Positions 42,341-63,735 of a DNA stretch of 64,000 bases are shown one piece after another. Position numbers and translations under genes: made by a program. A model generated the notes under the pieces. The model was not told the DNA's origin, did no database searches, and saw nothing but the letters and a program-made list of their open reading frames with translations. Each line of letters starts with the position of its first letter. Within the stretch, counting starts at the first letter, position 1. The DNA is taken from NCBI GenBank assembly GCA_016744015.1, contig JADGFD010000012.1, positions 23,782 through 87,781 of the forward strand, written 5' to 3'. Source of the DNA: Paracoccaceae bacterium (lineage in GTDB: Bacteria > Pseudomonadota > Alphaproteobacteria > Rhodobacterales > Rhodobacteraceae).

Positions 42341-42360
42341 GCTTATCAGGCTAGATAAGC
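42341..42360 (+). promoter_or_regulatory. Inverted repeat upstream of the OmpA-like gene
   Basis: Perfect seven-base arms GCTTATC / GATAAGC around AGGCTA, ending 18 bases before the ATG. Either an operator or a hairpin in the leader. Confidence 0.35.
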
Positions 42361-42378
42361 TTAGGAAATTCGAGACAG

Positions 42379-44292: not shown

Positions 44293-44624
44293 ACCAAACA
44301 GACCTGACCTTGATAATTGTATCCGCGATTGTGATTGCGCTGGTGCTTGGCTGGTCAGCCCGCTGGCTGTTTGACCGCCTGAACCGCGTGCCTCATGGCG
44401 CAGATGAAAACGGGCTGGACCCGCTGGAAGCCGCCGAGGACGCGCAAGAAAAAGCTGAGGCCGAGTTAAAGCGGATTCAACTGGAATATGCTTCGGAATA
44501 TAACCAGCTGAAAGCAGAGCTTGAGGCGACAATGGATGGCCTACATTCCGCGCGGCAGCGCGCTGACGAGGCCGAAGCTGCGCTGGAAGCCCTACAGAGC
44601 GAAGAGCCGCCTGCCAAAGACTAG
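44289..44624 (+). CDS. Small membrane-anchored coiled-coil protein, unknown function
   Basis: 111 residues: one N-terminal span (LTLIIVSAIVIALVLGWSARW, about 6-26) then a long charged helix predicted to coil (about 45-105, rich in Ala/Glu/Gln with QLKAELEATMDG). It overlaps the OmpA-like gene (ATGA), so the two are likely made together and may interact in the envelope. I recognise it as the small partner commonly found after this OmpA-type gene in Rhodobacteraceae but cannot name a function. Confidence 0.7.
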   Translation: MNQTDLTLIIVSAIVIALVLGWSARWLFDRLNRVPHGADENGLDPLEAAEDAQEKAEAELKRIQLEYASEYNQLKAELEATMDGLHSARQRADEAEAALEALQSEEPPAKD

Positions 44625-44676
44625 CGCACTGGAAATTATGCTGCCAATGGCCCATATATGGAGCCGGAGGTGCGTT

Positions 44677-46116: not shown

Positions 46117-46176
46117 CCCTCTGCGCCCGCGTGGATATTTATCGTTAGGCGGGCGTTGTAAAAGAGCTTACCACCG

Positions 46177-46202
46177 CATAAGTTAGGTATTGCTAACTTA
46201 TG
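46177..46202. promoter_or_regulatory. Perfect 10-bp inverted repeat upstream of the RND operon
   Basis: CATAAGTTAG-GTATTG-CTAACTTATG, ending 28 bases before the ATG of the adaptor gene. Length, symmetry and position are typical of a TetR- or MarR-type operator controlling an efflux pump. No regulator gene lies next to it. Confidence 0.7.
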
Positions 46203-46230
46203 CTTGGTGCGCTTTTAAAGGGGAACCGCC

Positions 46231-47574: not shown

Positions 47575-50500
47575 TCCGCTATTTTGCTGGTCATCCGACC
47601 ATTGCCAATTTGCTGATGCTGCTATTTCTCGGGGCGGGGCTTTTTGTGGCCCCTTCGCTTTTGCGGGAAACCTTTCCGCGCAAGCCGGCCTATCAGGTGG
47701 AGGTCAATGTGCCCTATCCGGGGGCGCGGCCCGAGGATGTGGAAAACGCGATTTGCGAGCGGATCGAAAATGCGCTGGATGCCGTAACGGGGATTGCGCG
47801 GCAATCTTGTGAGGCGCGCGAAGGCTCGGCACGGGCGCTGGTAGATATGAGTGAGGGCGGCGATTTTCAGGCGTTTAATGCGGATGTGAAAGCGGAAATC
47901 GAAGCGATTAATGACTTCCCCGAGCGGGCCGAAACCGCCAAGGTGCGGGCGCTGGGGCAAACCGATTTTGTGGCCTCGGTGGCCATAACTGGCCCCGAAA
48001 GCCTGACAGACCTAAAGGATTACGCCGAGCACCTCCGCACCCGCATGCTGCGCTGGGGCGGGATTCCGATTGTGACCATAAAGGGTTTTTCGACTCGCGA
48101 AATGCATATCGGGCTGGACCCGGAGGCTCTGCAACGCTTTGGTATTTCGGTTTCGGACGTAGCCAAGGCCGTGCAGGCGAGCAGCTTGGATTCACCCGCA
48201 GGGAATATTGAGACCAGCACCGAAACACTGTTGATCCGCGTGGCCGAGGAGCGGCGCAGCATTGCCAGCCTTGGGGCGCTTGTGGTGCGCTCATCGGCCA
48301 CCGGCGGGCAGGTGAGCCTGCGCCAAATTGCTGATATTTCAGAGCAATTTTCATCTGATGAAAATGCTATTCTGTTTAACGGTGCGCCCGCTGCGGTGCT
48401 GGATATCACCAAAACCCCCTCAGAGGATTCTCTGGATATCATCGCTGATCTCACGGCCTTTTTGGACGCCGAGCGCGCGCAGGCCCCGCCTTCGGTGGTG
48501 ATGGAAATTACGACCGACGGGGCTTCGGTGGTGCGTGAGCGGCTCACGCTGGTGGTGGTGAATGGGCTGCAAGGGCTGGCGCTCGTGTTTCTAGTGCTCT
48601 GGCTTTTCTTTGGCTTTCGCTTTGCGTTTTGGGTGGCTTTGGGGCTGCCTGTTTCCTTCATGGGGGGAGTGGCCCTGATGGGCTTTGTAGGCTATTCGTT
48701 GAACCTGATGACAACGCTTGGCTTGCTGATTGTGATCGGCCTTTTGATGGATGATGCGATTGTAATTTCTGAAAATATCGCATCGCGGCGGGAAAAGGGG
48801 GATAGCCCGCTGGAGGCGGTGATAAATGGCGCAGGGCAGGTCTTCCTGAATGTGCTGGCCTCCTTTGCCACCACAGCCATGGTGTTTGGCTCTTTGGGCT
48901 TTTTGGGGGGTAATCTGGGGGCGGTGCTAAAGGTGGTGCCGGTGGTGATGCTGTTTGTGCTCGTGGTTTCGCTGGTTGAGGCGTTTTTGATCCTGCCCCA
49001 CCACTTGGTGCACACGCTGGATGCGCCGGTTAAGCCGGGGGGCATGCGCCACAGGGTTGACCGGATGATGAAATATACCACCGAGTATATCATTGGCCCT
49101 GTCGTTGATCTGGCGATCCGATTTCGGTATTTTACAGCAGGACTGAGCATTGCGGTGCTGCTGCTAGCCGTGGCCATGCTGGCGGGCGGGTTTATTAAAT
49201 TTACGGCCTTTCCCGAGCTGGATGGAGATACAATTGTAGCGCGGGTTTTGCTGCCTCAAGGCACGCCGATTGAACGCACTGAAGGGGTGGTAGCAAAGCT
49301 TGAAACCGGGCTGGGGGTGATCAATGATCAGCTTATGCAGCCCGAAGGGCAAGACCTTATACGCAACGTAACCGTGCAATACGGCGTGAACCGGGATGCG
49401 TTTGAAAGCGGGGCCAATGTGGCTACGGTAAGTGTGGACCTGCTGCCCTCGGATATGCGCAACATCCGGCCTGATGGCATTTTGGAGGCTTGGCGAGCGG
49501 CGGTCGGGCCGGTGCCTGACGTGATTTCGCTAAAATATGCCGAGGCTACTATTGGGCCGGCGGGCATTGCGATTGACCTGCGTTTGCACGGGGATGATCT
49601 GGAAGTGATGAAGGCGGCATCATTGGAGCTGCAAGACTGGCTATGGCAATATGAGGGCGTGACCTCGGTGCTGGATGATTTGCGCCCGGGCAAGCGGGAA
49701 TTACAAATAACGCTGACAGAGGCGGCGGGGCCAATGGGGGTGACGGCAGCCACGATTGCGGACCAGATACGCTCGGCTTATTTGGGCACAACGGTGAGCG
49801 AAATGCTGGTGAAGGGGCAGCTTTTGCAAGTCAGCGCGCAGCTGGCCGACCTTGGCGAAGGTAGCTTTGCGCAGTTTGATGATTTTATCATTACCCGCGC
49901 TGATGGCAGCTTTGTGCCGCTCTCGCTGGTCGCGGATGTGGAATATGGCCAAGGCTATAACCGGATTAACCGCGAAAACGGCGTGCGCACGCTTACGGTG
50001 CAGGGCACGATCAATACCAGCATCGCCAATGCGAGTGCGATTGTCGGGGATACGCTGGCGAATTTTGTGCCAGATCTGGAGGCACGTTACCCGGGGCTGA
50101 GCATCGGGATTGAGGGCCAAAGGGCCGAAGCGAGCATTACGCAACAGTCGATGGTCAAGGGGTTTGGCATTGGGCTGATGGGTGTGTTTTTGCTACTGAG
50201 TTTTTTGTTTAGGTCCTATATCGAGCCGTTGGTGGTGATGCTGATCATCCCGTTTTCATTGATTGGCTCGATATTTGGGCACATGGCGATGGGGATGGAT
50301 TTTTCGATGCCTTCGATGCTTGGTTTTGTGGCGCTGGCAGGGGTTGTGGTGAATAACTCGATATTGCTGGTGGCTTTTGTGAAGCATGAACACGGCAGCA
50401 GCAAAACCGTGGCAGAGGCGGCGGCGAAAGCGGCGCGGGCGCGGTTTAGGGCGATATTTATCACGTCCTTAACAACGGTTGTTGGCTTGCTGCCTATTTT

Positions 50501-50675
50501 GACAGAAACCAGCTTACAAGCGCAAATTCTGATCCCGATGGTGGCGAGCATTGTGTTTGGCCTGTCGGCTTCGAGCCTAATGACCCTGTTTGTGCTGCCG
50601 TCGTTTTATGCGATTCTGGATGACTTCGGGCTTAGCACTTTGGCGCAAGAGCGGCGAGCGGCGCGTCTGGCATAG
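47571..50675 (+). CDS. RND-family efflux permease
   Basis: 1034-residue inner-membrane proton antiporter of the AcrB/MexB superfamily with two repeats of six spans and two large periplasmic loops. N-terminus FAGHPTIANLLMLLFLGAGL and the proton-relay region TLGLLIVIGLLMDDAIVISENI with the Asp pair in TM4. Second-half signature GFVALAGVVVNNSILLVAF. Drug-type (HAE) or lipid/other hydrophobic export is expected; substrate not deducible. Forms an operon with the adaptor. Confidence 0.95.
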   Translation: MIRYFAGHPTIANLLMLLFLGAGLFVAPSLLRETFPRKPAYQVEVNVPYPGARPEDVENAICERIENALDAVTGIARQSCEAREGSARALVDMSEGGDFQAFNADVKAEIEAINDFPERAETAKVRALGQTDFVASVAITGPESLTDLKDYAEHLRTRMLRWGGIPIVTIKGFSTREMHIGLDPEALQRFGISVSDVAKAVQASSLDSPAGNIETSTETLLIRVAEERRSIASLGALVVRSSATGGQVSLRQIADISEQFSSDENAILFNGAPAAVLDITKTPSEDSLDIIADLTAFLDAERAQAPPSVVMEITTDGASVVRERLTLVVVNGLQGLALVFLVLWLFFGFRFAFWVALGLPVSFMGGVALMGFVGYSLNLMTTLGLLIVIGLLMDDAIVISENIASRREKGDSPLEAVINGAGQVFLNVLASFATTAMVFGSLGFLGGNLGAVLKVVPVVMLFVLVVSLVEAFLILPHHLVHTLDAPVKPGGMRHRVDRMMKYTTEYIIGPVVDLAIRFRYFTAGLSIAVLLLAVAMLAGGFIKFTAFPELDGDTIVARVLLPQGTPIERTEGVVAKLETGLGVINDQLMQPEGQDLIRNVTVQYGVNRDAFESGANVATVSVDLLPSDMRNIRPDGILEAWRAAVGPVPDVISLKYAEATIGPAGIAIDLRLHGDDLEVMKAASLELQDWLWQYEGVTSVLDDLRPGKRELQITLTEAAGPMGVTAATIADQIRSAYLGTTVSEMLVKGQLLQVSAQLADLGEGSFAQFDDFIITRADGSFVPLSLVADVEYGQGYNRINRENGVRTLTVQGTINTSIANASAIVGDTLANFVPDLEARYPGLSIGIEGQRAEASITQQSMVKGFGIGLMGVFLLLSFLFRSYIEPLVVMLIIPFSLIGSIFGHMAMGMDFSMPSMLGFVALAGVVVNNSILLVAFVKHEHGSSKTVAEAAAKAARARFRAIFITSLTTVVGLLPILTETSLQAQILIPMVASIVFGLSASSLMTLFVLPSFYAILDDFGLSTLAQERRAARLA

Positions 50676-50692
50676 TGCGGCTTTGCGAGGGT

Positions 50693-50732
50693 GCACCCGC
50701 GCCGCGCTGTAACCGGGTCGCTTGTGGCAAGC
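50693..50732 (+). repeat. Dispersed repeat E, copy 1
   Basis: Exact 17-base block GCACCCGCGCCGCGCTG (50693-50709) followed by a related segment ending GTGGCAAGC. The same block with a related continuation (TGTGGCAGC) occurs at 59272-59311. Both lie directly downstream of a gene. Confidence 0.6.
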
Positions 50733-50871
50733 GTAAGTGATGCAGGGCGGCGCGAGCGGGATATCAAAGCAAGCACAAGGTTTGCCGCGCCGCCACCGGA
50801 GGGGGCGTTTTTGGGCTGGACAGTGGGGCTATATACAGGCTTAAAAGAAGCTTGGCAATTAGGAGACTCCC

Positions 50872-51924
50872 ATGGCTACCAAAATTCCTGCTACCGTTAT
50901 CACCGGCTTTCTGGGCGTGGGCAAAACCACGCTGGTGCAGCATTTGCTCGCCAATGCCAATGGTAAGCGCTTGGCTCTGATTATCAATGAATTTGGCGAC
51001 CTTGGTGTGGACGGTGACATCGTGAAGGGCTGTGGCATTGAGGGCTGCGCAGACGACGACGTGTTGGAGCTTTCCAACGGCTGCATTTGCTGCACGGTTG
51101 CCGAGGATTTCATTCCGGCAATGGAAAAGCTGCTGAACCGCGCCGAACCGCCCGACCATATTGTGATCGAAACCTCGGGGTTGGCTTTGCCGCAGCCCTT
51201 GGTGCGGGCGTTTAACTGGCCCGAAATTCGTAACCGTGTAACCGTCGACGGGGTAGTGACCGTGGTGGATAGCGCCGCGGTGCAGGCGGGGCGCTTTGCC
51301 CATGATGAAGCGGCGATAGATGCCCAGCGGCAGGGCGATGATATGCTTGATCATGAAACCCCGCTGTCAGAACTGTTTGAAGACCAGCTCGCTTGCGCGG
51401 ATATGATTATCCTGAACAAAACCGACTTGCTGAGCGCAGATGAAGCCTCGGCCTTGGAGGCCACGCTTAAGGGCGAAGCGCGCGCAGGGGTGCAATTTGT
51501 GAAGGCGCAAATGGGGGCCGTTAGCCCGGCCACTTTGCTTGGCCTTGGGGTGGGAGCTGAAAGCGATATGGCCAAGCGCCACGCCCATCATCATCACCAT
51601 GATGATGACGATGGTGAGCATCACCATGATCACGACCATGATGATTTCGAGACCTTTCAGGTGGAACTGGGCGCGGTTGGCGATGTGGACAGCTTTATGA
51701 CCCGCATAAAGCAGGTGATTATTGACCACGATATTTTGCGGCTCAAGGGGTTTGCGCAGGTTGGAAACAAGCCAATGCGGCTTGTGATTCAAGCTGTTGG
51801 GCCACGGGTTGATCACTATTTCGATCGGCCGTTGGCTGACGTGGAAAAAGGTAAAACCATGTTGGTGGTGATCGGGCAAGCGGGGCTGGACCACGCGGCC
51901 ATTACCCAGGCGTTGCGGGGGTAA
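50872..51924 (+). CDS. cobW: Cobalamin biosynthesis GTPase CobW
   Basis: G3E-family metallochaperone GTPase, 350 residues, thought to deliver cobalt to the CobNST chelatase. P-loop TGFLGVGKTT (11-20), the metal-binding CICC in LSNGCICCTV (71-74), NKTD base-recognition at 182-185, and a His/Asp-rich segment at 237-258 (HAHHHHHDDDD...HHHDHDHDD) as extra metal sites. Immediately upstream of cobN (ATG two bases after the stop). No B12 riboswitch was seen in its leader. Confidence 0.94.
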   Translation: MATKIPATVITGFLGVGKTTLVQHLLANANGKRLALIINEFGDLGVDGDIVKGCGIEGCADDDVLELSNGCICCTVAEDFIPAMEKLLNRAEPPDHIVIETSGLALPQPLVRAFNWPEIRNRVTVDGVVTVVDSAAVQAGRFAHDEAAIDAQRQGDDMLDHETPLSELFEDQLACADMIILNKTDLLSADEASALEATLKGEARAGVQFVKAQMGAVSPATLLGLGVGAESDMAKRHAHHHHHDDDDGEHHHDHDHDDFETFQVELGAVGDVDSFMTRIKQVIIDHDILRLKGFAQVGNKPMRLVIQAVGPRVDHYFDRPLADVEKGKTMLVVIGQAGLDHAAITQALRG

Positions 51925-51925
51925 T

Positions 51926-54900
51926 ATGCACCTTTTGCAGGCGCAGGCGGGTGAAATTACCGACGGTTCGGAGCCGGTGGACCTTGGGCAAACCCCTGCC
52001 GAGGTGATTGTGATTTCAGCGGCAGATACCGAAATTGCGGGGCTGTCAGAGGCCTATGGCAGCCTTAAGGATGGGCCAAAAAGCGTTCGGTTGGCGAATC
52101 TAACCCATCTTTCCCACCCGTTTACGGTGGACAAATACCTTGATGATACGGCGACCAAAGCGCGGCTGGTGATTATCCGCGCGCTGGGCGGCGCGGCTTA
52201 TTGGCCTTATGGGATGGAACAGTTCTCCATCCGGCTTCGGGCGGCTGGCGTGGCGCTCGCAGTGCTGCCGGGGGATGATAAACCCGATGCGGAGTTGCGA
52301 AACCTCTCAACAGTGAATGATGCTGACTATGATGCGCTTTGGGCCTACCTCGTGGAAGGCGGGCCTGAGAATTGTGGGAATTTTTTGCGGTTCGCGCGGC
52401 ATATGCTGGGGCAAGGCGAGATGCCGCCTGCGGCCAAAACCCTGTTGCGCGCGGGCATCTATGCGCCGGGGATGGCCACGGCTTCGATACAGGATTTGGC
52501 GGCAAACTTGTGGCAAGAGGGCCAGCCCGTTGTGGCGCTGGTATTTTATCGCGCGCTGGTGCAAGGGGCGGGGCTGCACCCCGTAAACCGGATGATACGG
52601 GCGCTCAGCCGCAAGGGGCTAAACCCGCTGCCAGTGTTTGTGGCCTCACTGAAAGACCCGCTCTCGGTGGCCACGCTTTCGGAGATATTCAAGCAGGCAC
52701 CGCCGAATATTGTGCTAAACGGGACCAGTTTTGCGGTGTCTACGCCGCAGCAAGGTGGTGCGGAAAATCCGCCTACCCCGCTGGATGCCACCGGCGCGCC
52801 GGTGCTCCAGATTGTATTTGCCGCGGGCACAGAGGCCGCGTGGGAAGATAGCGCAGCGGGGCTTTCGGCACGGGATATTGCGATGAATGTAAGCCTGCCG
52901 GAGCTGGACGGGCGGGTGCTGACGCGGGCCGTGAGCTTTAAGGGTGAGGCTTATTTTGACGAAGCTACGGAATGCCTGATTTCGGCATATCGCGCCCATG
53001 GGGAGCGGATTGGCTTTGTCGCAGAGTTGGTGGCAAATTGGGCCAAGCTTGGTTCCACGCCCGAGGGCGAGCGCAAGGTGGCGCTGGTGTTGGCGAATTA
53101 TCCGAATAAAGACGGGCGGCTGGCCAACGGGGTGGGGCTGGATACGCCTGCGGCCACGGTGGGGGTGCTGAAGGCGCTGGAAGGCGCGGGGTATCACACC
53201 CATAATCTCCCGAAGGATAGCGCCGAGTTGATGACGCGGATTCTCAAGGGGCCTACAAATTGGCTGACGGATCGCGCACGCCGCGAGGGGGGGGAGCGCC
53301 TGAGCATGGCCGATTATCAAATCGACTATGGCCAGTTGCCGATTGAGGTGCGCATCAAGGTGGAGGACCGCTGGGGGCCGCCGGAGACTGACCCGTTCTT
53401 TACGGCGGGTGAGGTGGATTGCGGGCATTTCAGCCTCTCTATTCTGAGCTTCGGTAATGTCGTGGTGGGCGTGCAGCCAGCGCGGGGCTATAACATTGAC
53501 CCGACCGAGAGTTACCATTCGCCCGACCTCGTACCGCCCCATAATTACTTTGCGTTTTACTTTTGGTTGCGGCATCAGCTTCGCGCCAACGCGATTGTGC
53601 ATATGGGCAAACATGGCAATATGGAGTGGCTGCCGGGCAAGGCGCTAGCGCTTTCCAATGAATGTTTTCCTGAGGCCGTGCTGGGGCCAACTCCGCACTT
53701 TTACCCGTTTATCGTGAATGACCCCGGCGAAGGATCGCAAGCCAAGCGGCGGTCTCAGGCGGTGATAATTGATCACCTCACGCCGCCACTGACGCGGGCG
53801 GAAAGCTATGGCCCGATGCGCGACCTTGAGGCGCTGGTGGACGAATATTACGAGGCGGCGGGGGTGGACCCTCGACGCACGGCGGTGCTGCGGGAGGAGA
53901 TTTTGAACCTGAGCCGCACCACGCGGCTGGATGAGGAGGCGGGGGTTGATTGGCTGGCGGGGGATGACAGCGCACTGGGCGCGATTGATAATTACCTGTG
54001 CGAACTGAAAGAAAGCCAAATTCGCGATGGGTTGCATATTTTTGGGGAAGCCCCGCAGGGGCGCTTGGCCGAAGACCTGATTGTGGCGCTGGCCCGAGTG
54101 CCGCGCGGGGCAGGCAAGGGCGGAGATGCATCGCTGATCCGTGCGCTGGCGGATGATTTGCGGCTGAGCTTTGACCCGCTTGATTGTGAGATGGGCGCGC
54201 GCTGGGAAGGCCCGAGGCCAGACGTGCTGGTGGGCGAGGGCGCGTGGCGTATTGCAGGCGATACGGTTGAGCGGCTGGAGGCGCTGGCGTCAAAACTTGT
54301 TGCCGGGGCGGGTTGCCCGCCGGAATGGCTGGCAACGGTTGCCGTTTTGGAGGAGATCGAGGCGCGGGTGCGGCCTGCGGTTGAGGCCTGCGGCGCGGCT
54401 GAGATAGGCGCGCTTTTGCGTGGGCTTTCAGGCCGGTTTGTGCCGCCGGGGCCATCGGGCGCGCCCACGCGCGGGCGGCTAGATGTGCTGCCCACGGGGC
54501 GCAATTTTTATAGCCTTGATAGCCGCAGCCTGCCTACACGCACAGCTTGGAAGCTTGGCTGGAAATCGGCCAGCTTGCTGATTGAGCGGCACTTGCAGGA
54601 GGCCGGAGATTGGCCGCGCGCGCTGGTGCTTACCGCATGGGGCACGGCCAATATGCGCACCGGCGGCGATGATATCGCGCAGGCGATGGCGCTGATCGGG
54701 GTGAGGCCGGTTTGGGATGATAACAGTGCACGGGTGACGGGCTATGAAATTTTGCCCATGAGCGTGCTCGGGCGGCCTCGGGTGGATGTAACCCTGCGGA
54801 TTTCTGGGTTCTTCCGTGATGCTTTTCCGGCGCAAATTGATTTGCTGGATAGCGCCATTCGCGCGGTTATGAAGCTGGATGAGACAGAGGCGGAGAACCT

Positions 54901-55657
54901 GTTGGCAGCGCGCTATAAGGCCGAGAAAGCTGTGCTGGGCGAGGCCGCCGGGGCGCGGATATTCGGGGCGATGCCGGGGGCATATGGCGCGGGGCTTCAG
55001 GCGCTTATTGATGAGCGGCTCTGGCAAGATAAGGCCGATTTTGCAGAGGCGTATTTGGCGTGGGGCAGCTTTGCCTATGGCGGCGGGGCCGAGGGCGCGG
55101 GCGCGCGCGGGGCCTTGGAGGCGCGGCTGAAGCGCGCTGATATTGTGGTGCAAAACCAAGATAACCGCGAGCATGATATTCTCGATAGCGACGACTATTA
55201 CCAATTTGAGGGCGGCGCGGCGGCGGCGATTGAGGCCTTGAGCGGGCAGGCCCCCACCAGCTATCACCCCGACCATTCCCGCCCCGAACGGCCCATTATT
55301 CGCACCTTGCAAGAGGAGATGAACCGCGTGGTGCGTAGCCGCGCGGTGAACCCGAAATGGATAGAAGGCGTAAAACGGCACGGCTATAAAGGTGCCTTTG
55401 AAATGGCCGCGACGCTCGACTATATGTTTGCCTTTGCCGCCACCACCAACGCCGTTTCCAACCACCACTTTGATATGGTTTACGCGGCTTATATTGAGGA
55501 GGACGACACGCGGAGCTTTATCGAGGAGGCCAACCCAGCGGCCCTAGCCGAAATGGCCGCGCGCTTTGAGGAAGCCATTGAGCGGGGCATGTGGCAGCCG
55601 CGCAGCAATTCGGCGAAGGCCATTTTGAAGGGGATTTTAGGGCATGATGAAGATTGA
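51926..55657 (+). CDS. cobN: Cobaltochelatase subunit CobN
   Basis: Large subunit of the aerobic ATP-dependent cobaltochelatase that inserts Co2+ into hydrogenobyrinate a,c-diamide with CobST. 1243 residues; CobN/magnesium chelatase H-type fold with YFAFYFWLRHQLRANAIVHM then GKHGNMEWLPGKALALS, and near the end EHDILDSDDYYQFEGG and VVRSRAVNPKWIEGV. Shows the organism makes B12 by the late-cobalt route. The C-terminus overlaps the following GNAT gene by 14 bases. Confidence 0.97.
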   Translation: MHLLQAQAGEITDGSEPVDLGQTPAEVIVISAADTEIAGLSEAYGSLKDGPKSVRLANLTHLSHPFTVDKYLDDTATKARLVIIRALGGAAYWPYGMEQFSIRLRAAGVALAVLPGDDKPDAELRNLSTVNDADYDALWAYLVEGGPENCGNFLRFARHMLGQGEMPPAAKTLLRAGIYAPGMATASIQDLAANLWQEGQPVVALVFYRALVQGAGLHPVNRMIRALSRKGLNPLPVFVASLKDPLSVATLSEIFKQAPPNIVLNGTSFAVSTPQQGGAENPPTPLDATGAPVLQIVFAAGTEAAWEDSAAGLSARDIAMNVSLPELDGRVLTRAVSFKGEAYFDEATECLISAYRAHGERIGFVAELVANWAKLGSTPEGERKVALVLANYPNKDGRLANGVGLDTPAATVGVLKALEGAGYHTHNLPKDSAELMTRILKGPTNWLTDRARREGGERLSMADYQIDYGQLPIEVRIKVEDRWGPPETDPFFTAGEVDCGHFSLSILSFGNVVVGVQPARGYNIDPTESYHSPDLVPPHNYFAFYFWLRHQLRANAIVHMGKHGNMEWLPGKALALSNECFPEAVLGPTPHFYPFIVNDPGEGSQAKRRSQAVIIDHLTPPLTRAESYGPMRDLEALVDEYYEAAGVDPRRTAVLREEILNLSRTTRLDEEAGVDWLAGDDSALGAIDNYLCELKESQIRDGLHIFGEAPQGRLAEDLIVALARVPRGAGKGGDASLIRALADDLRLSFDPLDCEMGARWEGPRPDVLVGEGAWRIAGDTVERLEALASKLVAGAGCPPEWLATVAVLEEIEARVRPAVEACGAAEIGALLRGLSGRFVPPGPSGAPTRGRLDVLPTGRNFYSLDSRSLPTRTAWKLGWKSASLLIERHLQEAGDWPRALVLTAWGTANMRTGGDDIAQAMALIGVRPVWDDNSARVTGYEILPMSVLGRPRVDVTLRISGFFRDAFPAQIDLLDSAIRAVMKLDETEAENLLAARYKAEKAVLGEAAGARIFGAMPGAYGAGLQALIDERLWQDKADFAEAYLAWGSFAYGGGAEGAGARGALEARLKRADIVVQNQDNREHDILDSDDYYQFEGGAAAAIEALSGQAPTSYHPDHSRPERPIIRTLQEEMNRVVRSRAVNPKWIEGVKRHGYKGAFEMAATLDYMFAFAATTNAVSNHHFDMVYAAYIEEDDTRSFIEEANPAALAEMAARFEEAIERGMWQPRSNSAKAILKGILGHDED

Positions 55658-56113
55658 GCTTGAAGCAAGCGCAGAGGCAAAGGCCAAGATATGTTCTGAC
55701 ATACTGGCAGCGCTGCCTGCGTGGTTTGGAGATCAGGAAACCAACCTCGAATATATCGAGGATGTGCGAACACGCATGATGTTTGTGGCTCGAGGCCCAG
55801 AGGGGATAGTTGGCTTTTTGTCTCTTACAAAAATGACTGATAGCGCTTTTGATATCCACGTTTTGGCCGTTTTGCCCACGCAGCATCGGCAGGGCACAGG
55901 CTGTGCGTTGATTGATGCCGCCAAAAAACATGCCCATAGGCAAGGAGCCGCCTTTCTTACGGTCAAAACCCTTGGACCTTCGATGGAAAATGCGGACTAT
56001 GCCGCCACGCGTAAATTTTACCGTGCTGTTGGGTTTTCCCTTTGGAGGAAAACATGGAGATTTGGGGGGAAGGCGTGCCCTGCCTGATTATGTGCCAGTC
56101 AATATGCCCATGA
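55644..56113 (+). pseudogene. GNAT N-acetyltransferase gene with a frameshift near its 3' end
   Basis: GNAT fold (acetyl-CoA dependent): FDIHVLAVLPTQHRQGTGCA carries the pyrophosphate-binding (Q/R)xxGxG/A motif. As read in one frame it stops at 56087 after FYRAVGFSLWRKTWRF, which is unlike the family. In the +1 frame from about 56039 the expected tail appears, PLEENMEIWGEGVPCLIM, stopping at 56113. One missing T in the TTTT run at 56034-56037 explains the break. The restored stop gives a classic ATGA overlap with the next gene. Either a recent mutation or an assembly error. Confidence 0.75.
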
Positions 56114-56427
56114 CCAACACCCTCTTCATCTGTGGGAAAGCCCGAATGCGCAGCCCGACGGCGGCGGATATTGTATTGGGCTGGGGCGGCAAGGCCGACT
56201 TTGCGGGGCTGAGCCATGATGCGGACGAGAGGGTGTCTTCTGAGCATATTGAGTGGGCTGATGTGATTTACGTGATGGAAGCGCGGCAGAAGAAGCGGCT
56301 GAGCGGGCTGTTTGGGCCGCTGTTGAAGGATATGCGCGTGGTGAGCCTTGGGGTGCCGGATAAGTATGCATATATGCAGCCCGAGTTGGTGGAGTTATTA
56401 TCCAAAAAGCTGGCGCACCTGCGATGA
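56110..56427 (+). CDS. Small low-molecular-weight protein-tyrosine phosphatase-like protein
   Basis: 105 residues with an N-terminal CX5R loop, LFICGKARMRSPTA: Cys8 is the nucleophile and Arg14 the phosphate binder, followed by SPT as in the LMW-PTP branch (usual form CxxNxxRSPxA). The general acid Asp is in VPDKYAYM (about 84). Start at ATG 56110 gives an ATGA overlap with the restored end of the acetyltransferase frame. The next gene also overlaps by four bases. Substrate unknown. Confidence 0.82.
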   Translation: MTNTLFICGKARMRSPTAADIVLGWGGKADFAGLSHDADERVSSEHIEWADVIYVMEARQKKRLSGLFGPLLKDMRVVSLGVPDKYAYMQPELVELLSKKLAHLR

Positions 56428-57023
56428 ACCCTCACCGCTTTTCCCATCTTTCCGAGGCCGAACTCAAATCTATTTTTCTGGATATGGTCCAGCAAACGGG
56501 TTTCTTGCGGGACGTTCTTGGCCGCGCGGCAGAGCTGAACCTCCCGCACTGGCGGGTTGTTTCGGGCGCGCTTTATAATACGGTGTGGAACCAGCTCACG
56601 GGGCGGCCTGAAGGCTACGGGATAAAGGATGTGGATATCTTTTACTATGACCCGGATACCAGCTGGGAAGCCGAGGACGGGGCGATAAAAAGCGCCACTG
56701 GGTTTCCGGCGCACCCGCCGGTGGAGGTGCGCAACCAAGCGCGGGTGCATTTGTGGTTCGCCAAGCATTTTGGCTATGAAATTCAGCCGATTACCAGCGT
56801 TGAAGACGGCATAGACCGCTTTGCCAGCACCACCCACTGCGTGGGGCTACGGGTGGAAAGTGGCCACTATGATCTTTATGCGCCCCATGGGCTGCGCTCG
56901 ATTTTTGAGATGAAAGTGCAGCCCAACCCGATACAGGATAACAAGGCCACCCATGACGCCAAGGGGGCGCGGCAAAAGGCGATGTGGCCCGAGCTGGAGA
57001 TTATGCCGTGGCCAGAAAAATGA
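56424..57023 (+). CDS. Nucleotidyltransferase-fold protein (DUF925 family)
   Basis: 199 residues of the DUF925-type nucleotidyltransferase family. The NT-fold signature is VVSGALYNTVWNQLTGRP followed by YGIKDVDIFYYD, giving the DxD metal pair, and later HVGLR-like strand CVGLRVESGHYDLYAPHGL. Substrate unknown. Translationally coupled to the phosphatase gene (four-base overlap). The three-gene set GNAT-phosphatase-NTase interrupts the cob genes. Confidence 0.8.
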   Translation: MNPHRFSHLSEAELKSIFLDMVQQTGFLRDVLGRAAELNLPHWRVVSGALYNTVWNQLTGRPEGYGIKDVDIFYYDPDTSWEAEDGAIKSATGFPAHPPVEVRNQARVHLWFAKHFGYEIQPITSVEDGIDRFASTTHCVGLRVESGHYDLYAPHGLRSIFEMKVQPNPIQDNKATHDAKGARQKAMWPELEIMPWPEK

Positions 57024-57060
57024 ATTCAACATCTTGAATATGTAAAATCTTTCCCCCATA

Positions 57061-57091
57061 TAGTCCCTAACTGAAATTTTCTAAGGGACTA
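57061..57091 (+). promoter_or_regulatory. Hairpin that could mask the ribosome binding site of the next gene
   Basis: Perfect eight-base arms TAGTCCCT / AGGGACTA with a 15-base loop, ending five bases before the ATG at 57097. The right arm holds the only Shine-Dalgarno-like bases (AAGGGA), so folding would hide it. Confidence 0.5.
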
Positions 57092-57096
57092 GAATC

Positions 57097-58308
57097 ATGC
57101 TGAACATGCCAAAAAATATGAAAGAGCGCTATTCGCCGCTCTACTTCCTCGCCTCTGTGGGCGCTGGAGGCCTTGTTGTGACCTTCTTTATGTATCTGCT
57201 TTACTGGGTGCCGCACCCCGGCAAGCCCGTGCCGGTGTTTGAAGATATCATGGCGCATCTTGCCACGGCTTCAATTGCGGCACAGGCGCTCACCGTCATT
57301 GCCATGGCGGCCATTGCGCTTTTCTCCTACCTCAATATTCGATTGCTGGTTTGGAACCTGTCGGAATTTGCGCTGTTTAAGAAAACAGACGCCTATATTA
57401 ACCACCAAAAAACCAATGCGCAAACGCAGGTAAAAGCCCAAGCGCTGGCGTTGGCTATGACGATTAACGTGCTGTTTATGATTGGCTTGGTGTTTGTGCC
57501 GGGCCTGTGGAGCGTGGTTGAATACCTGTTCCCACTGGCAATTCTGGCCTTTTTGGCTGTTGGTGTGCTGGCGTTTCGTAACCTCGGGCAATTCCTGTCC
57601 CGTGTGCTGGTTGAGGGTGGTTTTGACCGTGCCAACAATAACAGCTTTGCCCAGCTTCTGCCGGCCTTTGCCTTCTCGATGATCGGTGTTGGCCTTGCCG
57701 CCCCTGCGGCTATGAGCACCATTAAGCTCACGGCTGGCATCAGCTTGATTGCTTCAACCTTCTTTCTGGTCACCTCGGTTATTCTAATGACCATTGCGCT
57801 CATCCTCGGCGTTGCCGCCATGATGAAGCACGGTGCGGCCAAAGAAACCTCACCAACACTGTTGATCGTTATCCCTATTATGACCGTGCTCGGCATTCTG
57901 GTTGTGCGGCAAGATCACGGGCTGCACACTTTGTTTGATGGCCATACGTCAAGCAGCGATACGCTGATGTTCCTCACCACGCTGATCTCGATCCAGTTCG
58001 TATTTGCCTTGCTCGGAATCATGGTGCTTAAAGCGCAGAAATACTTCTCGCATTATATCACTGGAGCAGACAAATCTGCGGGCTCATACGCGCTGGTTTG
58101 CCCAGGGATTGGCTTTTCGGTATTGTTCCATTTCTTCATCAATAAAGGCCTGGTGGCCAATGGCATGCTGGACAAATTCTCGGTGGCATACATGGTGCTA
58201 AGTGGCGTGGCGATTGCCTCCCAGTTCGCCATGATTTGGCTCTTGTTTAAGCTTAACAGCAAGCACTTTGGTGCTGAAGCGCGGCAAGCGGCTGTGCCTG
58301 CTGAATAA
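57097..58308 (+). CDS. Multi-pass membrane protein, possibly TDT/SLAC1-like
   Basis: 403 residues with about ten hydrophobic spans, beginning YFLASVGAGGLVVTFFMYLLYW. The GAGG at the first helix and the length recall tellurite-resistance/dicarboxylate (TDT, SLAC1) channels, which include sulfite exporters such as SSU1; I cannot confirm this by motif alone. The C-terminal half contains HTLFDGHTSSSDTLMFLTTL and a conserved-looking FHFFINKGLVA. Leader contains a hairpin next to the start codon; an excellent terminator follows. In a sulfite-producing organism a sulfite or other anion channel is an appealing hypothesis. Confidence 0.55.
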   Translation: MLNMPKNMKERYSPLYFLASVGAGGLVVTFFMYLLYWVPHPGKPVPVFEDIMAHLATASIAAQALTVIAMAAIALFSYLNIRLLVWNLSEFALFKKTDAYINHQKTNAQTQVKAQALALAMTINVLFMIGLVFVPGLWSVVEYLFPLAILAFLAVGVLAFRNLGQFLSRVLVEGGFDRANNNSFAQLLPAFAFSMIGVGLAAPAAMSTIKLTAGISLIASTFFLVTSVILMTIALILGVAAMMKHGAAKETSPTLLIVIPIMTVLGILVVRQDHGLHTLFDGHTSSSDTLMFLTTLISIQFVFALLGIMVLKAQKYFSHYITGADKSAGSYALVCPGIGFSVLFHFFINKGLVANGMLDKFSVAYMVLSGVAIASQFAMIWLLFKLNSKHFGAEARQAAVPAE

Positions 58309-58326
58309 GCCAAGTGTAACCGTGAA

Positions 58327-58358
58327 AACTGGCAGGGCCACGCTCTGCCGGTTTTTTT
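58327..58358. terminator. Terminator between the membrane protein and PhnA-like genes
   Basis: Stem AACTGGCAG / CTGCCGGTT with loop GGCCACGCT region, followed by TTTTTTT. Lies between convergent genes, and its T-tract overlaps the stop of the minus-strand gene. Confidence 0.85.
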
Positions 58359-58566
58359 ATGCTTTTTTGAGGAATTGGGTTTTCAGCACTATGGTGGCCT
58401 TGCCCACGCGGCACTCCACCTGCTCGGGGTTACCCGTGGTGCGGATGCTCTTAATAACGCTACCCCGCTTCAGGGTTTTGCTCATCCCCTTCACCTTCAG
58501 GTCTTTATTCACCATAACACTGTCGCCATCGGCCAGCTCATTGCCGTTGCAATCCATTGCGTCCAT
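58357..58566 (-). CDS. PhnA/YjdM-like small protein (C-terminal domain only)
   Basis: 69 residues matching the C-terminal SH3-like domain of PhnA/YjdM: DCNGNELADGDSVMVNKDLK, then LKRGSVIKSIR and VLKTQFLKKA. The N-terminal zinc ribbon of full PhnA is absent, as in many alphaproteobacterial stand-alone forms. Despite the name (alkylphosphonate uptake operon) its role is unknown. Divergent from cobO with about 50 bases between. Confidence 0.87.
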   Translation of the reverse strand: MDAMDCNGNELADGDSVMVNKDLKVKGMSKTLKRGSVIKSIRTTGNPEQVECRVGKATIVLKTQFLKKA

Positions 58567-58618
58567 CGGGGTGTTCCTTATATGATGTGTTACATTCTCC
58601 TAACCAAAGGCGCGCGAA

Positions 58619-59233
58619 ATGGCAAATACCGAAGATTTTGACCGGCACAACAAGAAAATGGCTAAAAAGAAAGCCGCGCGCGATAAGATAATGGCGACCA
58701 AAACCGCCGATAAAGGCCTTGTGATCGTGCACACCGGCAAAGGCAAAGGCAAATCTTCGGCAGCTTTTGGCATGATCTTTCGGCATATCGCATGGGGGCG
58801 CCCCTGTGCTGTGGTGCAATTTATTAAAGGCGGTATGGAGAGCGGCGAGAAGAAACTGATCACCGAGCGGTTTTCTGATCTCTGCCCGTTCTATGCCATG
58901 GGGGAAGGGTTTACGTGGGAAACACAGGATAAATCCCGCGATATTGAAATGGCGCAAGCGGCGTGGGAAAAGGCTAAAGAGCTGATTCTGGACGAGAAAA
59001 ACCAGATGGTTCTGCTCGACGAAATCAACATAGCCCTGCGCTATGACTACCTCGATATTGCCGAGGTGGTCCGGTTTCTAACCGAGGAAAAACCTGAGAT
59101 GACCCATGTGGTGCTGACGGGGCGCAATGCCAAGCCCGAGCTATTGGAAATTGCTGATCTCGGCACAGAAATGGAGCTTCTGAAGCACCCCTTCCGGTCG
59201 GGGGTTAAAGCACAAGAAGGCGTCGAATTTTAA
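58619..59233 (+). CDS. cobO: Cob(I)yrinic acid a,c-diamide adenosyltransferase
   Basis: CobO/BtuR-family ATP:corrinoid adenosyltransferase, 204 residues; transfers the 5'-deoxyadenosyl group of ATP to reduced cobalt. Modified P-loop HTGKGKGKSSAAFG (38-51), RPCAVVQFIKGGMESGE, LLDEINIALRYDYLD and TGRNAKPELLEIADLGTEM. Lys-rich N-terminal tail. It belongs functionally with cobN and cobW located about 3-8 kb upstream, from which it is separated by unrelated genes. Confidence 0.96.
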   Translation: MANTEDFDRHNKKMAKKKAARDKIMATKTADKGLVIVHTGKGKGKSSAAFGMIFRHIAWGRPCAVVQFIKGGMESGEKKLITERFSDLCPFYAMGEGFTWETQDKSRDIEMAQAAWEKAKELILDEKNQMVLLDEINIALRYDYLDIAEVVRFLTEEKPEMTHVVLTGRNAKPELLEIADLGTEMELLKHPFRSGVKAQEGVEF

Positions 59234-59578
59234 CCAAGCGGCGCGCCACTCTTTGCCTGCTTGGCGGTGCCGCACCCGCGCCGCGCTGAGGCTTGGTTGC
59301 ATGTGGCAGCATAAAGCAGCTTTCCAAATTGGCCAAAAATCCTGGGTGAATTGGCGAAGCCAAGAGGGCAAAGCCCTGCCGAGCCGTAGGCGAGGCCACG
59401 CCCAACGGGCGGGTTCGATTTGCTTGCAAATCGTGGCACGGCCGGCGGGAGTGCTACAGATTTGCGCTCCGAATCCTCCACGCACGGAGCGCCCGTGGCC
59501 CTTTATTGATGGTGTTGGGCTGCCAGTTTGACCAATGTTTTCTGCTCTATGATTTCTCTAGGTGTCAGATCTTGCTCG
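59234..59578. repeat. 345-base repeat-rich spacer: repeat E copy 2 and hairpin element copy C
   Basis: No gene. Repeat E copy 2 at 59272-59311 (GCACCCGCGCCGCGCTG exact with copy 1). Element copy C at 59380-59440: GAGCCGTAGGCGAGG, CCACGCCCAACGGGCGGG, a perfect hairpin GATTTGC-TT-GCAAATC and GTGGCAC. Remaining bases show no open frame with coding character. Confidence 0.6.
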
Positions 59579-60061
59579 TTTAGTCCCGCAGAAACCTGAT
59601 CTCCCTATTTGCTTCTTCAATATAGCGCCCTTTTGGCTGGCTGGTTAGGCACGGGTGTATAGGCAGAGCAATAGCAGCGGGATTACGGGATCTGCCTGCT
59701 GAGCTCCCCCCCGAAAATGGGGCGCTGACCGGCAGGTGTGACTTCTCAACGGTGCGGATGGTTTTAAGCTTTTCAGATGCACCCCGCTCGGTGATTGCTA
59801 CGCAATAACCTGCCGGCAATGGGCGGCACTATTCAGTAATACTCTTTTCGCTACGAAGTCCCGTCAAAATGATGCGGATTTTCTCCTCTGCGGAATAGGT
59901 CTGTCTGGTTTTGGGGCAGAGGTTCTTCACAAACTTATCGACAGCTGCCTTGCCGCTTCCGGATTCCTTGTTCATATTCCCCCCCTTGGTTGCTACCGTA
60001 AGCCAGAAATCATCCGCCAACTAAAACTCAAATCTGCCCCACGAGGGCTGACGTCTGACAC
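59579..60061 (-). mobile_element. IS3-like transposase remnant
   Basis: Minus-strand fragments of an insertion sequence. 59829-59975 encodes 48 residues beginning MNKESGSGKAAVDKFVKN, then TRQTYSAEEKIRIILTGLRS, the N-terminus of an IS3-group OrfA, but stopping early after KSITE. Downstream, 59580-59819 has RGASEKLKTIRTVEKSHLPV, resembling the N-terminus of an IS3-type OrfB, followed by unrelated residues. The outer end TGTCAGACGTCAGCCCTCG at about 60043-60061 looks like the terminal repeat. Clearly inactive: both orfs are truncated and most of the transposase is lost. Confidence 0.6.
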
Positions 60062-60070
60062 AGTTTAGTG

Positions 60071-60105: not shown

Positions 60106-60675
60106 TTAGGGGGGGGTCTGGGAAGATTTTGGCCCTTCTGCACTGCGCAACTCTAGATTTCGGCGGAAGCGCTCGATTTCTTTCACCATGCTTGCCCCGC
60201 TATAGACGAGCGAGGTTTCGTGGCGAGCGTATTTTCCGACGCGGTCGGCGCTCAGCCAATTGAACGAGCCAATGCAGAACACATTTTCATCGGCGCTGAC
60301 CATTTTACTGTGGAGCTGGTGGACGGGGTGAAGTGTGGCTCCGATGCCAGAAAGGGCCGCGGTGGCTTCGTCGAATTGACTGATGCCAGCGTTGTTCATT
60401 TTGGCGTTCAAAATCGGATCAGCATATATATCAATTACCACGCCGCGCGCTACGGCCTCTTGCATTAACTCCAAAAAGCCGTTCTTTTCCATGGTCGATT
60501 TTATGATCCACGGGCTAACAATTTCCACGTTATTACAGGCTGATGCCAATGTATCACGCAGGAAGATATCATGCGCGTCAGCGTCGCGAAGCATTTCAAT
60601 CTCTGTGGCGCTTTGCTTGAGGTCTTCGCGTGGCTGAACGTCAAATTCGAGAGCATTTTTCGGCTCGGCATGCAA
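60106..60675 (-). CDS. Phospholipase D-like nuclease-family protein
   Basis: 189 residues with one PLD active-site motif, HSKMVSAD-(x6)-GSFNW, matching HxKx4Dx6GSxN; one such domain would dimerise to form a two-His active site, as in Nuc/BfiI-type nucleases. Core strands NVEIVSPWII and VVIDIYADPILNAKMN. The start lies inside the last 35 bases of the helicase gene and has its own GGGAG Shine-Dalgarno, so the two are translationally linked. No signal peptide, so it acts in the cytoplasm. Pairing with an SF1 helicase suggests nucleic-acid cleavage in defence. Confidence 0.82.
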   Translation of the reverse strand: MHAEPKNALEFDVQPREDLKQSATEIEMLRDADAHDIFLRDTLASACNNVEIVSPWIIKSTMEKNGFLELMQEAVARGVVIDIYADPILNAKMNNAGISQFDEATAALSGIGATLHPVHQLHSKMVSADENVFCIGSFNWLSADRVGKYARHETSLVYSGASMVKEIERFRRNLELRSAEGPKSSQTPP

Positions 60676-63577
60676 TAATCTCCCGAGCAGCCCGCGCGGG
60701 GTATCTGGGGGGGGCGATCGAGAATAGATCCATATCGCCGAAGACGATAAAGCTGTCTTTTGCTCGCGATGTCGCCACGTTTAGCATTGAGGGTGATAGG
60801 TCAATAAACCCGCCATCTGCGCCCTTTGTATACACTGGAGAAAACAAAACGATAGGGCGTTCTGCGCCCTGAAGTGCGTGCACTGTGCCTATGGTTATGG
60901 CCGCAAACCCCTCGGTTTGAATGCCCACCGCCGCGCAGGCTTGGCGGAGTTCGCGGGCTTGGCGGCCAAAGGGGGTTACGATGGCAAGGATGGCTTCGAG
61001 CTTATCATTGTAACGCGCCTCTAAAGATGCGCGTTGTGCGGCAAGCCAGGCCGCGATCGTGCGGGCTTCGGTCGGGTTAAACCGGCTGCCGCCCGCCGAA
61101 AACGTCGCGCCATCAATATGGAGATATCCTAATGGCGGCAGGCCTGCGTTTGTTGCCAGCCCTCGCATAGGCTCAAGGTGGCCTTGATAGCAAAGCGCGT
61201 TGGAAAACGCGATGATCTCGTCAAAGCAGCGACGGTGCTCAAAGAGATAAAGGCCGCGATCAAGATCCGGGTAAGGCTGATACTGGCAGGCATTCTGCGC
61301 ACAGGCCATAACGCTCCCGGTATGGGAAAGAAAGCCAGATGATAGCACGCTAGCGAGCGTGGCTTCGTCCATTTCTGCGGGGACCACGCCAAATTTGACC
61401 AGATTCCCAAGGTCTGTCATCTTTTGAATGTTTGAAATCGGTTCAATCTGTTGGCTGTCCCCCACAACCAAAGCCTGCTTGGCTAATGCCAAAGACGGCG
61501 CGGCCACCTCCGGCAACACCTGCCCGGCTTCGTCGATGATCAGCAGGTCAATAAATTCATAAAGGTAGTCATCTACAAATGCATTTCCGCGCTTAACGCT
61601 ACAGGTCATTTTGCTAGGGAGGGTCGCAAAAGTAGCCACTGCGCAAGGGGTGAGCATCATGCGCCTATGCCAGCGTGGAATAACGCTCTTTCTGCCCGTG
61701 CGCCTTTTTTCGGCGTCAGCGTTGGGCAGGACCTTGTCCATTTCCATAAGCCACCGGCCTTCCCAATAATGGGTGGCCAGCAGGAATAACGGAAAGCGTA
61801 TCTCGCAATCCATGAAGCTGTCAATTTTCGAGATGTCAGCCCCCGCGTGTTGAGGAAATATCTGCGAAACGACAGCCTTGAGCCGCTCACTGGCAGCCTT
61901 TTCATTCGCAACGGCCGCATGGCCACGCTTTAGCGCTTGCAAGGCAAGCTCTTGCTCGGATTTCGCATCATAGCGCAAATTTTGTATTTCGGGTCGGCAT
62001 TTGGAGATGTGGCTTAGCTTTTCCGCGAGGTCATCAAAACCAGCATCCCGAAACACGCCGCGCGCGCCGGCCAGCCGTTTGCGCGCGACCGGTGGCAAAA
62101 ACGAAAACATCGCCACCAGTGTGGATTCAGCAACCACATGGCGATCCCAACCCGAGGCCAGCGCTTGAACTTTTGCGGTTTTCTGTTGGGCATCCTGCAA
62201 CTGTGTTTCGCGTGTTTGCAACGCCGTCGGAATGTCCGCGCCCAATTCGAAAACAAGTTCCTTTTGCGCGCGCTTTGCATCCGAAAAGGCGCGATCAGCC
62301 CGTTCCATCTGGCTAATCTGTGCAGCTATTTTCGCATGTAAGCGCACCACCACCCGCTCAACGTCATCAAACGGCTCATCAAAGGCATGGCGCGCTTTTT
62401 CAAGGTAGACCTCCCGAGCTTTCAAAACATAAGCCGGCGTTTCCAGCCTTTTGGTAAAGGACTCCGTCTGATAGCGCTTGGAGGCTTCCTCTTCGCGCGC
62501 CGCAGACGACAAAAACAGGCCATAACTTTTGATGTTTGGCAGCCACCTGCCGGAAAAGGGGCCGGTGCCTTTTGCATAATCTTTGCCGAAAGCATCAATG
62601 ATGTTGGTCACCGCCTGATTATTGGCTGAGGCGGCAATAATGACCGGCGGGTCACCCTCTTCAGCGGCGGCTTTCACCCATGCGCTGGCAATGGCCGAAA
62701 GCAGCAAGGTTGTTTTCCCGGTGCCGGGCGGGCCATTTACAGCCAAAACGTCGCCATGCGTGGCTCTCGCCAAATGCGCCAACACATCGCGCTGATTCTG
62801 CGCCACAGGGAATTGGTCATTTGAATGGCCCAGCCGCTCGCTCAAGGCATATGGCATTGCAATATTATCTGCCAGCGGGCGGGGGATAATGCGCGCATAG
62901 TTTTGCAATAGCGGCCGGATATCCTCGCGTTTTATCAAATTATCACAAAGCGCAAGAATCCCTTTGGTCATCGCTGAGGCCACGTCTGATGCCTCGAAAA
63001 ACCCAGGGCCATGTTCTGTATAAAGGCTATTCTCTTTTTGCCAGTCAGCCGCAACGGCGCTCAACAGCTGGTCACAATATTCAAGATATTTCGCCCAATT
63101 CTCCGCATTGTCCTGCGTATGCCCCGCAGGCGCAAAGCCATTGAGCGAAAGAAAACTATCTTGTGCTTCCACCGTGCCAATCGAAAACGCGCCCGAGGTC
63201 AGCGGCTCCAACAGATCCCGCGGGACAAGGGTGCGGCCTGGGCGGATTGTCCCGTCTCGGGTCACAATCGCTTCGGATACAATGGGCGCGATGGCATCCG
63301 GCAAGCCGTCTTGCCGCAGTGTGCCATGCGCAGCTCTGCGGGCATAGATATGTGGCCATATCCGAATGGGCACGGTTTCCTCGTGCCGGTCCTGAAATAA
63401 CCTTTGCGCTTGGCGTGGCGGAATTCGGCCATCCGCTAGTGCATGCGCACTCAGAGCTTCTCGCCCCTTAATCTCCCGCCGTTGAAAACGCCCCTTACCA
63501 AACATGCTGTCAGAAATGCTCGCTCGCCAATAGTTCAGCAACTTGAGCGGCTCATTTTGTTTTGGGTTTTCAGGCAT
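60641..63577 (-). CDS. Large SF1 (Upf1/DNA2-like) helicase, candidate defence protein
   Basis: 978-residue superfamily 1 helicase of the AAA_11/AAA_12 type. About 250 N-terminal residues show no domain I recognise. Q-like motif FPVAQNQRDVL (256-266), Walker A GPPGTGKTTLLL (282-293), a charged helical insert likely to coil (about 385-560), Walker B LLIIDEAGQ (678-686), motif III VVGDSQQIEP (704-713), EHRRC, and C-terminal TIGTVHALQGAE and VATSRAKD motifs V/VI. It overlaps a PLD-family gene by 35 bases. Helicase plus PLD is the composition of Mokosh defence systems, but the kinase domain of type I is not visible here. Confidence 0.85.
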   Translation of the reverse strand: MPENPKQNEPLKLLNYWRASISDSMFGKGRFQRREIKGREALSAHALADGRIPPRQAQRLFQDRHEETVPIRIWPHIYARRAAHGTLRQDGLPDAIAPIVSEAIVTRDGTIRPGRTLVPRDLLEPLTSGAFSIGTVEAQDSFLSLNGFAPAGHTQDNAENWAKYLEYCDQLLSAVAADWQKENSLYTEHGPGFFEASDVASAMTKGILALCDNLIKREDIRPLLQNYARIIPRPLADNIAMPYALSERLGHSNDQFPVAQNQRDVLAHLARATHGDVLAVNGPPGTGKTTLLLSAIASAWVKAAAEEGDPPVIIAASANNQAVTNIIDAFGKDYAKGTGPFSGRWLPNIKSYGLFLSSAAREEEASKRYQTESFTKRLETPAYVLKAREVYLEKARHAFDEPFDDVERVVVRLHAKIAAQISQMERADRAFSDAKRAQKELVFELGADIPTALQTRETQLQDAQQKTAKVQALASGWDRHVVAESTLVAMFSFLPPVARKRLAGARGVFRDAGFDDLAEKLSHISKCRPEIQNLRYDAKSEQELALQALKRGHAAVANEKAASERLKAVVSQIFPQHAGADISKIDSFMDCEIRFPLFLLATHYWEGRWLMEMDKVLPNADAEKRRTGRKSVIPRWHRRMMLTPCAVATFATLPSKMTCSVKRGNAFVDDYLYEFIDLLIIDEAGQVLPEVAAPSLALAKQALVVGDSQQIEPISNIQKMTDLGNLVKFGVVPAEMDEATLASVLSSGFLSHTGSVMACAQNACQYQPYPDLDRGLYLFEHRRCFDEIIAFSNALCYQGHLEPMRGLATNAGLPPLGYLHIDGATFSAGGSRFNPTEARTIAAWLAAQRASLEARYNDKLEAILAIVTPFGRQARELRQACAAVGIQTEGFAAITIGTVHALQGAERPIVLFSPVYTKGADGGFIDLSPSMLNVATSRAKDSFIVFGDMDLFSIAPPRYPARAAREIIACRAEKCSRI

Positions 63578-63687
63578 GGTGAGAAATAGAAACCAGATGA
63601 CTACTCCGGTAGTTGTATAGCAACCGTTCTGGAATTACTAGAAAACTTCGGGGCTTAATCTGCACGATTTCACGCTAAATAGTAAAT
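63578..63687. other. Short spacer between helicase gene and tRNA fragment
   Basis: Contains the promoter region of the helicase gene. No inverted repeat or recognisable element was seen. Confidence 0.4.
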
Positions 63688-63735
63688 GGTGACCCCGACA
63701 GGATTCGAACCTGTAGCCTGCTGATTAGACGTAAT
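63688..63735 (-). tRNA. 3' half of a tRNA-Arg(TCT) gene (partial), likely att site
   Basis: On the minus strand: anticodon TCT followed by AA, the stem half TCAGC, five-base variable loop AGGCT, T arm ACAGG-TTCGAAT-CCTGT, acceptor strand CGGGGTC, A73 and encoded CCA. The 5' half (acceptor GACCCCG, D arm, anticodon 5' stem) is absent; the upstream bases do not pair. This is a tRNA 3' fragment, the usual footprint of tyrosine-recombinase integration. By geometry the inserted element lies at higher coordinates. Confidence 0.7.

Follow-up and report, generated by a model that had tools for sequence, protein, structure and literature searches.

The locus considered here lies near one end of a 64,000-nt stretch of DNA from a Paracoccaceae bacterium (positions 23782–87781 of contig C3, JADGFD010000012.1; hereafter the window), and it raises the question of whether a helicase and a neighbouring PLD nuclease form a new antiphage system or belong to a known one, Mokosh. 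The assembly comprises 3.14 Mb in 52 contigs, and its closest named genome relatives are Loktanella, Sedimentitalea and Poseidonocella (65–68% identity over the best segments). Two open reading frames (ORFs) are found on the minus strand: ORF 1 (60641–63577, 978 aa, ATG start), the SF1 (UPF1-like) helicase part, and ORF 2 (60106–60675, 189 aa, first start TTG), the PLD nuclease part, in a frame shifted by one position. They overlap by 35 bases (60641–60675). An earlier reading of this DNA (the original prediction) had described this arrangement, and both coordinates and Pfam matches agree with it; it had further proposed that a separate PLD gene, the lack of a kinase and a long unknown helicase N-terminus might mark a new subtype of Mokosh. 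Passages of PMC11672841 describe type I Mokosh as separate helicase and PLD genes plus a serine-threonine kinase domain, and type II, in passages of the same source and of PMC10013915, as one gene encoding both helicase and PLD. Our analysis indicates that ORF 1 and ORF 2 are almost certainly consecutive pieces of one mkoC gene, the gene of type II, read in two frames; this judgement holds jointly for a mutation, a sequencing error or a switch as the origin of the frame change.

Pfam searches matched ORF 1 to AAA_11 (51.5 bits) and AAA_12 (60.8 bits), and ORF 2 to PLDc_2 (33.8 bits) with a single HKD motif. When the PADLOC profiles were used, MkoC (PDLC03924, 1136 positions) aligned at positions 5–957 with residues 10–962 of ORF 1 (1062.9 bits) and at positions 965–1134 with ORF 2 (157.3 bits), against 109.2 bits for the best MkoA match and 63.6 bits for the best MkoB match. 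The link to Mokosh is thereby upheld, with MkoC the best profile by a wide margin, and the proposed search with the MkoA, MkoB, MkoC and DrmC profiles returned the very kind of match to a described system that the original prediction had named as speaking against a new subtype. The catalytic motifs are intact in both parts (Walker A at residues 282–290 and DEAGQ at 682–686 of the helicase; H122, K124 and D129 of the PLD protein). The N-terminus of ORF 1 is common to the aligned full-length relatives and lies within the MkoC match from residue 10 onwards, so that what had been called a long unknown N-terminus is an ordinary MkoC N-terminus. A kinase hidden in this region was likewise ruled out; as originally observed, no protein-kinase domain was present among the Pfam matches at E ≤ 1 for the helicase and PLD ORFs.

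The position of the frame change was located by three-frame translation and a homopolymer scan. The coding strand carries eight consecutive C at 60707–60714 (minus strand; G8 on the plus strand), and within this run the family sequence leaves the frame of ORF 1 and goes on in the frame of ORF 2, upstream of the TTG codon. Residues 1–957 of ORF 1 are in the MkoC frame, and residues 958–978 are an out-of-frame tail of 21 residues that ends at a stop codon. When aligned with P0002, the closest full-length relative found, frame −1 of the window covers residues 6–964 and frame −2 covers residues 962–1150. A GGGAG motif upstream of the TTG of ORF 2 is part of the coding sequence in the ancestral fused frame. 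A second run of eight C (60109–60116, minus strand) stands beside the stop codon of ORF 2, where this ORF extends about 10 aa past the end of P0002. Three G/C runs of eight were seen in the window, compared with about 4.4 expected for independent bases; since such runs are not rare in this DNA, the run at the junction needs no special explanation. The PLD part looks separate because a one-position shift of frame divides a gene whose relatives are fused.

The relatives were then compared across the helicase–PLD junction. P0002 is one protein of 1150 aa, 77% identical to ORF 1, and matches MkoC positions 5–1134 in a single piece (1282.2 bits); its identity to the window is 76.7% in the helicase part (its residues 6–964) and 81.5% in the PLD part. 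Among the fetched loci, 18 distinct ones span the junction with both domains, and all of them keep a single frame through it. These 18 correspond to 17 genome rows (L002–L017 and L019), of which 15 are distinct (L010 duplicates L003, and L019 duplicates L005), together with three viral loci (L087–L089); the count leaves aside L020–L022, which fall short of the junction, L033, which is cut by a contig end, L090 and L091, which have no PLD match, and L092, a distant relative. A class-wide search of 385 genomes added a further whole MkoC match (L093, positions 3–1132) in one open frame with no stop. Thus no frame change at the junction was found in the 18 distinct loci and the site is not conserved among relatives; their longest G/C runs are 5 or 6 bases (a run of at least 7 in 0 of the 18 genes examined), while the window gene has two of 8. 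Because the relatives examined as DNA are fused and one profile, MkoC, extends across both ORFs, the new helicase–PLD subtype suggested originally was rejected.

The relatives were also compared as proteins. Among the best 120 of 1685 helicase relatives, 112 (P0002 itself counted) reach P0002 residue 1100, and the other eight stop between residues 851 and 1089 (the window, P0007, P0010, P0021, P0023, P0077, P0079 and P0080). In the PLD search, 34 short matches, the window included, start their alignments anywhere over P0002 residues 830–1082, and many of them are on contigs of about 1–2 kb and possibly cut by contig ends; some are on long contigs. Standalone MkoC-type PLD genes were therefore not borne out as a natural class, given these scattered starts and short contigs. 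There may be a small number of additional interrupted or split copies, with no consistent split point among the relatives. In the matches listed for 394 family genomes and the 385 class genomes, a strong MkoC helicase match with a separate MkoC PLD match immediately after it was present in the window's genome only. Within the same genus, MkoC occurs in 1 of 13 genomes, that of the window; a weaker match in G397, an open frame of 1171 aa aligned at positions 244–963, is another helicase.

A viral contig (IMGVR_UViG_3300029995_000342; L090:2254–5274) was observed to encode an MkoC-like helicase of 1006 aa (931.6 bits, positions 5–967) that ends at the domain boundary. No PLD match lies downstream of it, and the next ORF resembles an alpha/beta hydrolase by eye. 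On its sequence, this locus, like L091, is a natural helicase-only MkoC relative.

As to the origin of the frame change, we consider it probable, with a modest degree of confidence, that the window holds a single mkoC whose frame was changed within the C8 run by a likely recent slippage mutation, which would leave the predicted helicase without its nuclease. Both halves are similarly conserved and their motifs are kept, and the break should therefore be either young or, as a sequencing error, absent from the cell. The neighbouring genes bear on this choice. In comparisons with two same-genus genomes (overlapping sets, window 38.5–59.2 kb), 28 of 28 ORF comparisons showed no change of frame, and cobN is read in frame through a G8 run of its own (53287–53294); such unbroken neighbours lean towards a real mutation and against a generally poor assembly. 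In our judgement, a real mutation is about twice as likely as a sequencing error.

Several observations weigh against a mutation of a fused gene. Two helicase relatives stop close to the domain boundary, P0007 at P0002 residue 981 and P0077 at 986 (the window at 964), and 15 of the 34 short PLD matches, that of the window included, align from P0002 residues 927–1000. In the unfiltered frame test, 4 of 144 queries were in two frames (two places overlapping opposite-strand genes), and no two-frame cases were left once the test was restricted to the longest ORFs. ORF 1 occurs once in the protein collection (P0001), on a contig of 87,796 bases, 15 more than C3 (87,781 bases), and probably from the same assembly. 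According to passages of Antonov et al. (PMC3711429), lone frameshifts supported by BLASTp are expected to stem from errors in sequencing and not from indels.

The last point belongs to the strongest alternative, namely that the strain carries an unbroken, ordinary mkoC and that the apparent shift arose from wrong base calling or assembly of the C8 run. This explanation is tentative and appreciably less probable than a mutation. It agrees with the position of the break in a G/C run that ranks among the window's three longest, as well as with the similar conservation of the two halves and their intact motifs, and the expectation for lone frameshifts speaks for it; the in-frame neighbours and the G run of cobN, likewise read in frame, speak against it.

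It is improbable that the C8 run acts as a switch, either through phase variation by replication slippage or through recoding by the ribosome or polymerase, yielding the helicase alone or the helicase–PLD fusion. Long G/C runs are described as phase-variation elements of Campylobacter in passages of PMC8355987, the break at the domain boundary leaves two complete domains, and L090 provides a natural helicase-only counterpart. Against this, none of the 18 relatives' genes has a comparable run, runs of eight are ordinary in the window, and the comparison is limited to one isolate. A conserved programmed frameshift was ruled out, as there is no conserved run at the junction in the relatives examined. 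An extended form of the switch is a little less probable still: a switchable Mokosh in which the C8 tract flips between the fusion and a helicase lacking the nuclease, and a population would thereby hold a dangerous nuclease mostly off and re-arm by slippage. No account of a broken or phase-variable Mokosh was found in the open-licence literature.

Least probable of all, and very unlikely, is a genuine two-gene Mokosh variant with separate helicase and PLD proteins and coupled translation over the 35-base overlap: the GGGAG upstream of TTG, the motifs kept in both ORFs, the ends of P0007 and P0077 and four PLD-only proteins that begin close to the boundary and come from long contigs (P0133, P0134, P0135 and P0143) would suit it, but GGGAG belongs to the ancestral coding frame, P0133 and P0134 start inside the helicase, the short PLD matches have no common start, each of the 18 distinct fetched loci with both domains at the junction is fused, and the helicase-then-PLD layout is confined to the window's genome among the matches listed.

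With a slippage mutation as the preferred explanation, ribosomes on the window copy would make a helicase ending 21 residues past the frame change and lacking the PLD domain. A separate PLD protein would arise only via re-initiation at TTG, with the modest GGGAG upstream, or by rare ribosomal slippage. A helicase made without its PLD implies that the predicted defence would probably be lost or weak, and the defence provided by this mkoC copy is likely to be off or weakened.

Other interrupted copies of mkoC were also found. MkoC matches of at least 700 bits occurred at 11 places among the 394 family genomes: seven are whole in one frame (L010–L016), one is the window (L018), L017 contains both a TGA and a shift of frame, and L019 and L020 are cut near contig ends. 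Below 700 bits, G386 (L021) has MkoC matches in two separated pieces. Among named genomes, L008 has a frame change near residue 495. In L004, with 6 kb of upstream sequence covered, the first 407 residues are missing; its 5′ part looks as if replaced by a masked stretch and seeming transposase-helper coding sequence. Copies of mkoC are thus interrupted in several ways, as expected for defence genes that are gained and lost.

The genes surrounding mkoC in its relatives point to defence. Eight of ten hand-picked neighbour ORFs from four relatives' loci have PADLOC matches, and the other two are an efflux pair in L002. The matches are Drt5 (680.8 bits) and, weakly, an HNH-HIT protein (35.2 bits) in L002, an AriA/OLD-like ATPase (105.8 bits) in L003, HsdM, HsdS and SoFic in L006, and HsdM and HsdS in L007. 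The proposed check for a defence-island neighbourhood therefore gave a defence rather than a housekeeping context in the relatives examined. Some 43 plasmid records carry a helicase relative at E ≤ 1e-60. In the two Halomonas loci (L006:3078–9489 and L007:2895–9531), mkoC stands straight after type I hsdM–hsdS, with a 4-base overlap with hsdS, in an operon-like order.

The original prediction had placed the pair between an insertion sequence (IS) remnant and a tRNA attachment scar, and both were identified. An IS3-type remnant lies at 59822–60065 (minus strand); it matched six plasmid records by blastn at about 69–71% identity, one of them annotated as an IS3 family transposase, and its 48-aa open piece had no Pfam match. 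On the other side, 63687–63728 (minus strand) is a 42-base scar of the 3′ half of tRNA-Arg(TCT), with one mismatch to the intact tRNA, and is a probable old attachment site. The right end of the window is also the contig end, and the view past the tRNA scar closes there. ARAGORN detected no complete tRNA in the 64-kb window; the intact tRNA-Arg(TCT) is located at C4:63918–63994, with a second scar 17 kb further on. Since an integrase and defence-like genes lie between that intact tRNA and the second scar, defence genes of the source genome probably use tRNA-Arg(TCT) as a landing site, and mkoC probably arrived via this site. The 17-kb element itself (C4:63918–81283, within L054) carries, besides the integrase, an Avs4-like NTPase (1731 aa, 72.7 bits), a PDC-M60C-like PNP_UDP protein (162.7 bits) and a 962-aa protein with no Pfam or PADLOC match at E ≤ 0.001.

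Short dispersed repeats were observed elsewhere in the window. Parts of 59321–59457 recur at 24 further places in this genome with 73–96% identity, and the adjoining 59234–59309 has 8 more matches. Another short dispersed repeat, 50655–50798, takes 33 of the 46 matches of window 40001–59300 in two same-genus genomes.

The predicted structures were compared with solved folds. The AlphaFold2 model of ORF 2 (mean predicted local distance difference test score, pLDDT, 86.2) was nearest to Nuc (1byr) and NucT (6ehi), and these are single-HKD nucleases, which the model resembles; by sequence, the PLD ORF had no match in the Protein Data Bank (PDB) at E ≤ 0.001. The helicase model (mean pLDDT 78.2) was nearest to senataxin (8ftm), Aquarius, IGHMBP2 and UPF1, a loose match with TM-scores of at most 0.45 and a large root-mean-square deviation, and UPF1 was the nearest solved structure by sequence. 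Identities in the fold tables were 9–22%. We know of no UPF1/senataxin-type helicase and no Nuc/NucT protein that is a helicase–PLD fusion. Since the models resemble these helicases and nucleases, and from what is known of the family, an unbroken MkoC would likely recognise phage nucleic acid, probably RNA, translocate on it through the UPF1/senataxin-like helicase and cleave it with a Nuc-like PLD dimer. Passages of PMC11291487 state that Mokosh degrades viral transcripts, and its mechanism is listed as unknown in a part of PMC12926258.

When the locus is set against the known systems, DISARM DrmC shares with it a PLD-like protein of defence systems and was ruled out (best PADLOC DrmC match 17.5 bits; NCBIfam DrmC 16.1 bits against a cut-off of 133). 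Type I Mokosh (MkoA and MkoB) resembles the locus in having helicase and PLD in separate ORFs, but here no serine-threonine kinase domain is present and a frame change, instead of a second gene, accounts for the separation. Type II Mokosh (MkoC) has the same order, helicase N-terminal and then PLD C-terminal, the same absence of a kinase and relatives that adjoin other defence genes, and the two ORFs jointly cover its full profile. An N-terminal SF1 (COG1112-type) RNA helicase is predicted from AAA_11, AAA_12 and MkoC positions 5–957, and a C-terminal PLD nuclease from MkoC positions 965–1134, the HKD residues and the Nuc-like predicted fold. Both domains of type II are described as lying in a single gene in passages of PMC11672841, whereas the window gene, as assembled, runs in frame −1 and then in frame −2, and ordinary translation would give no fused protein. 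Because of these two frames, the locus was filed as a frame-interrupted mkoC copy rather than as a working type II system, and a false new antiphage subtype is thereby removed: a frame-changed mkoC mimics a two-gene system of helicase and PLD nuclease.

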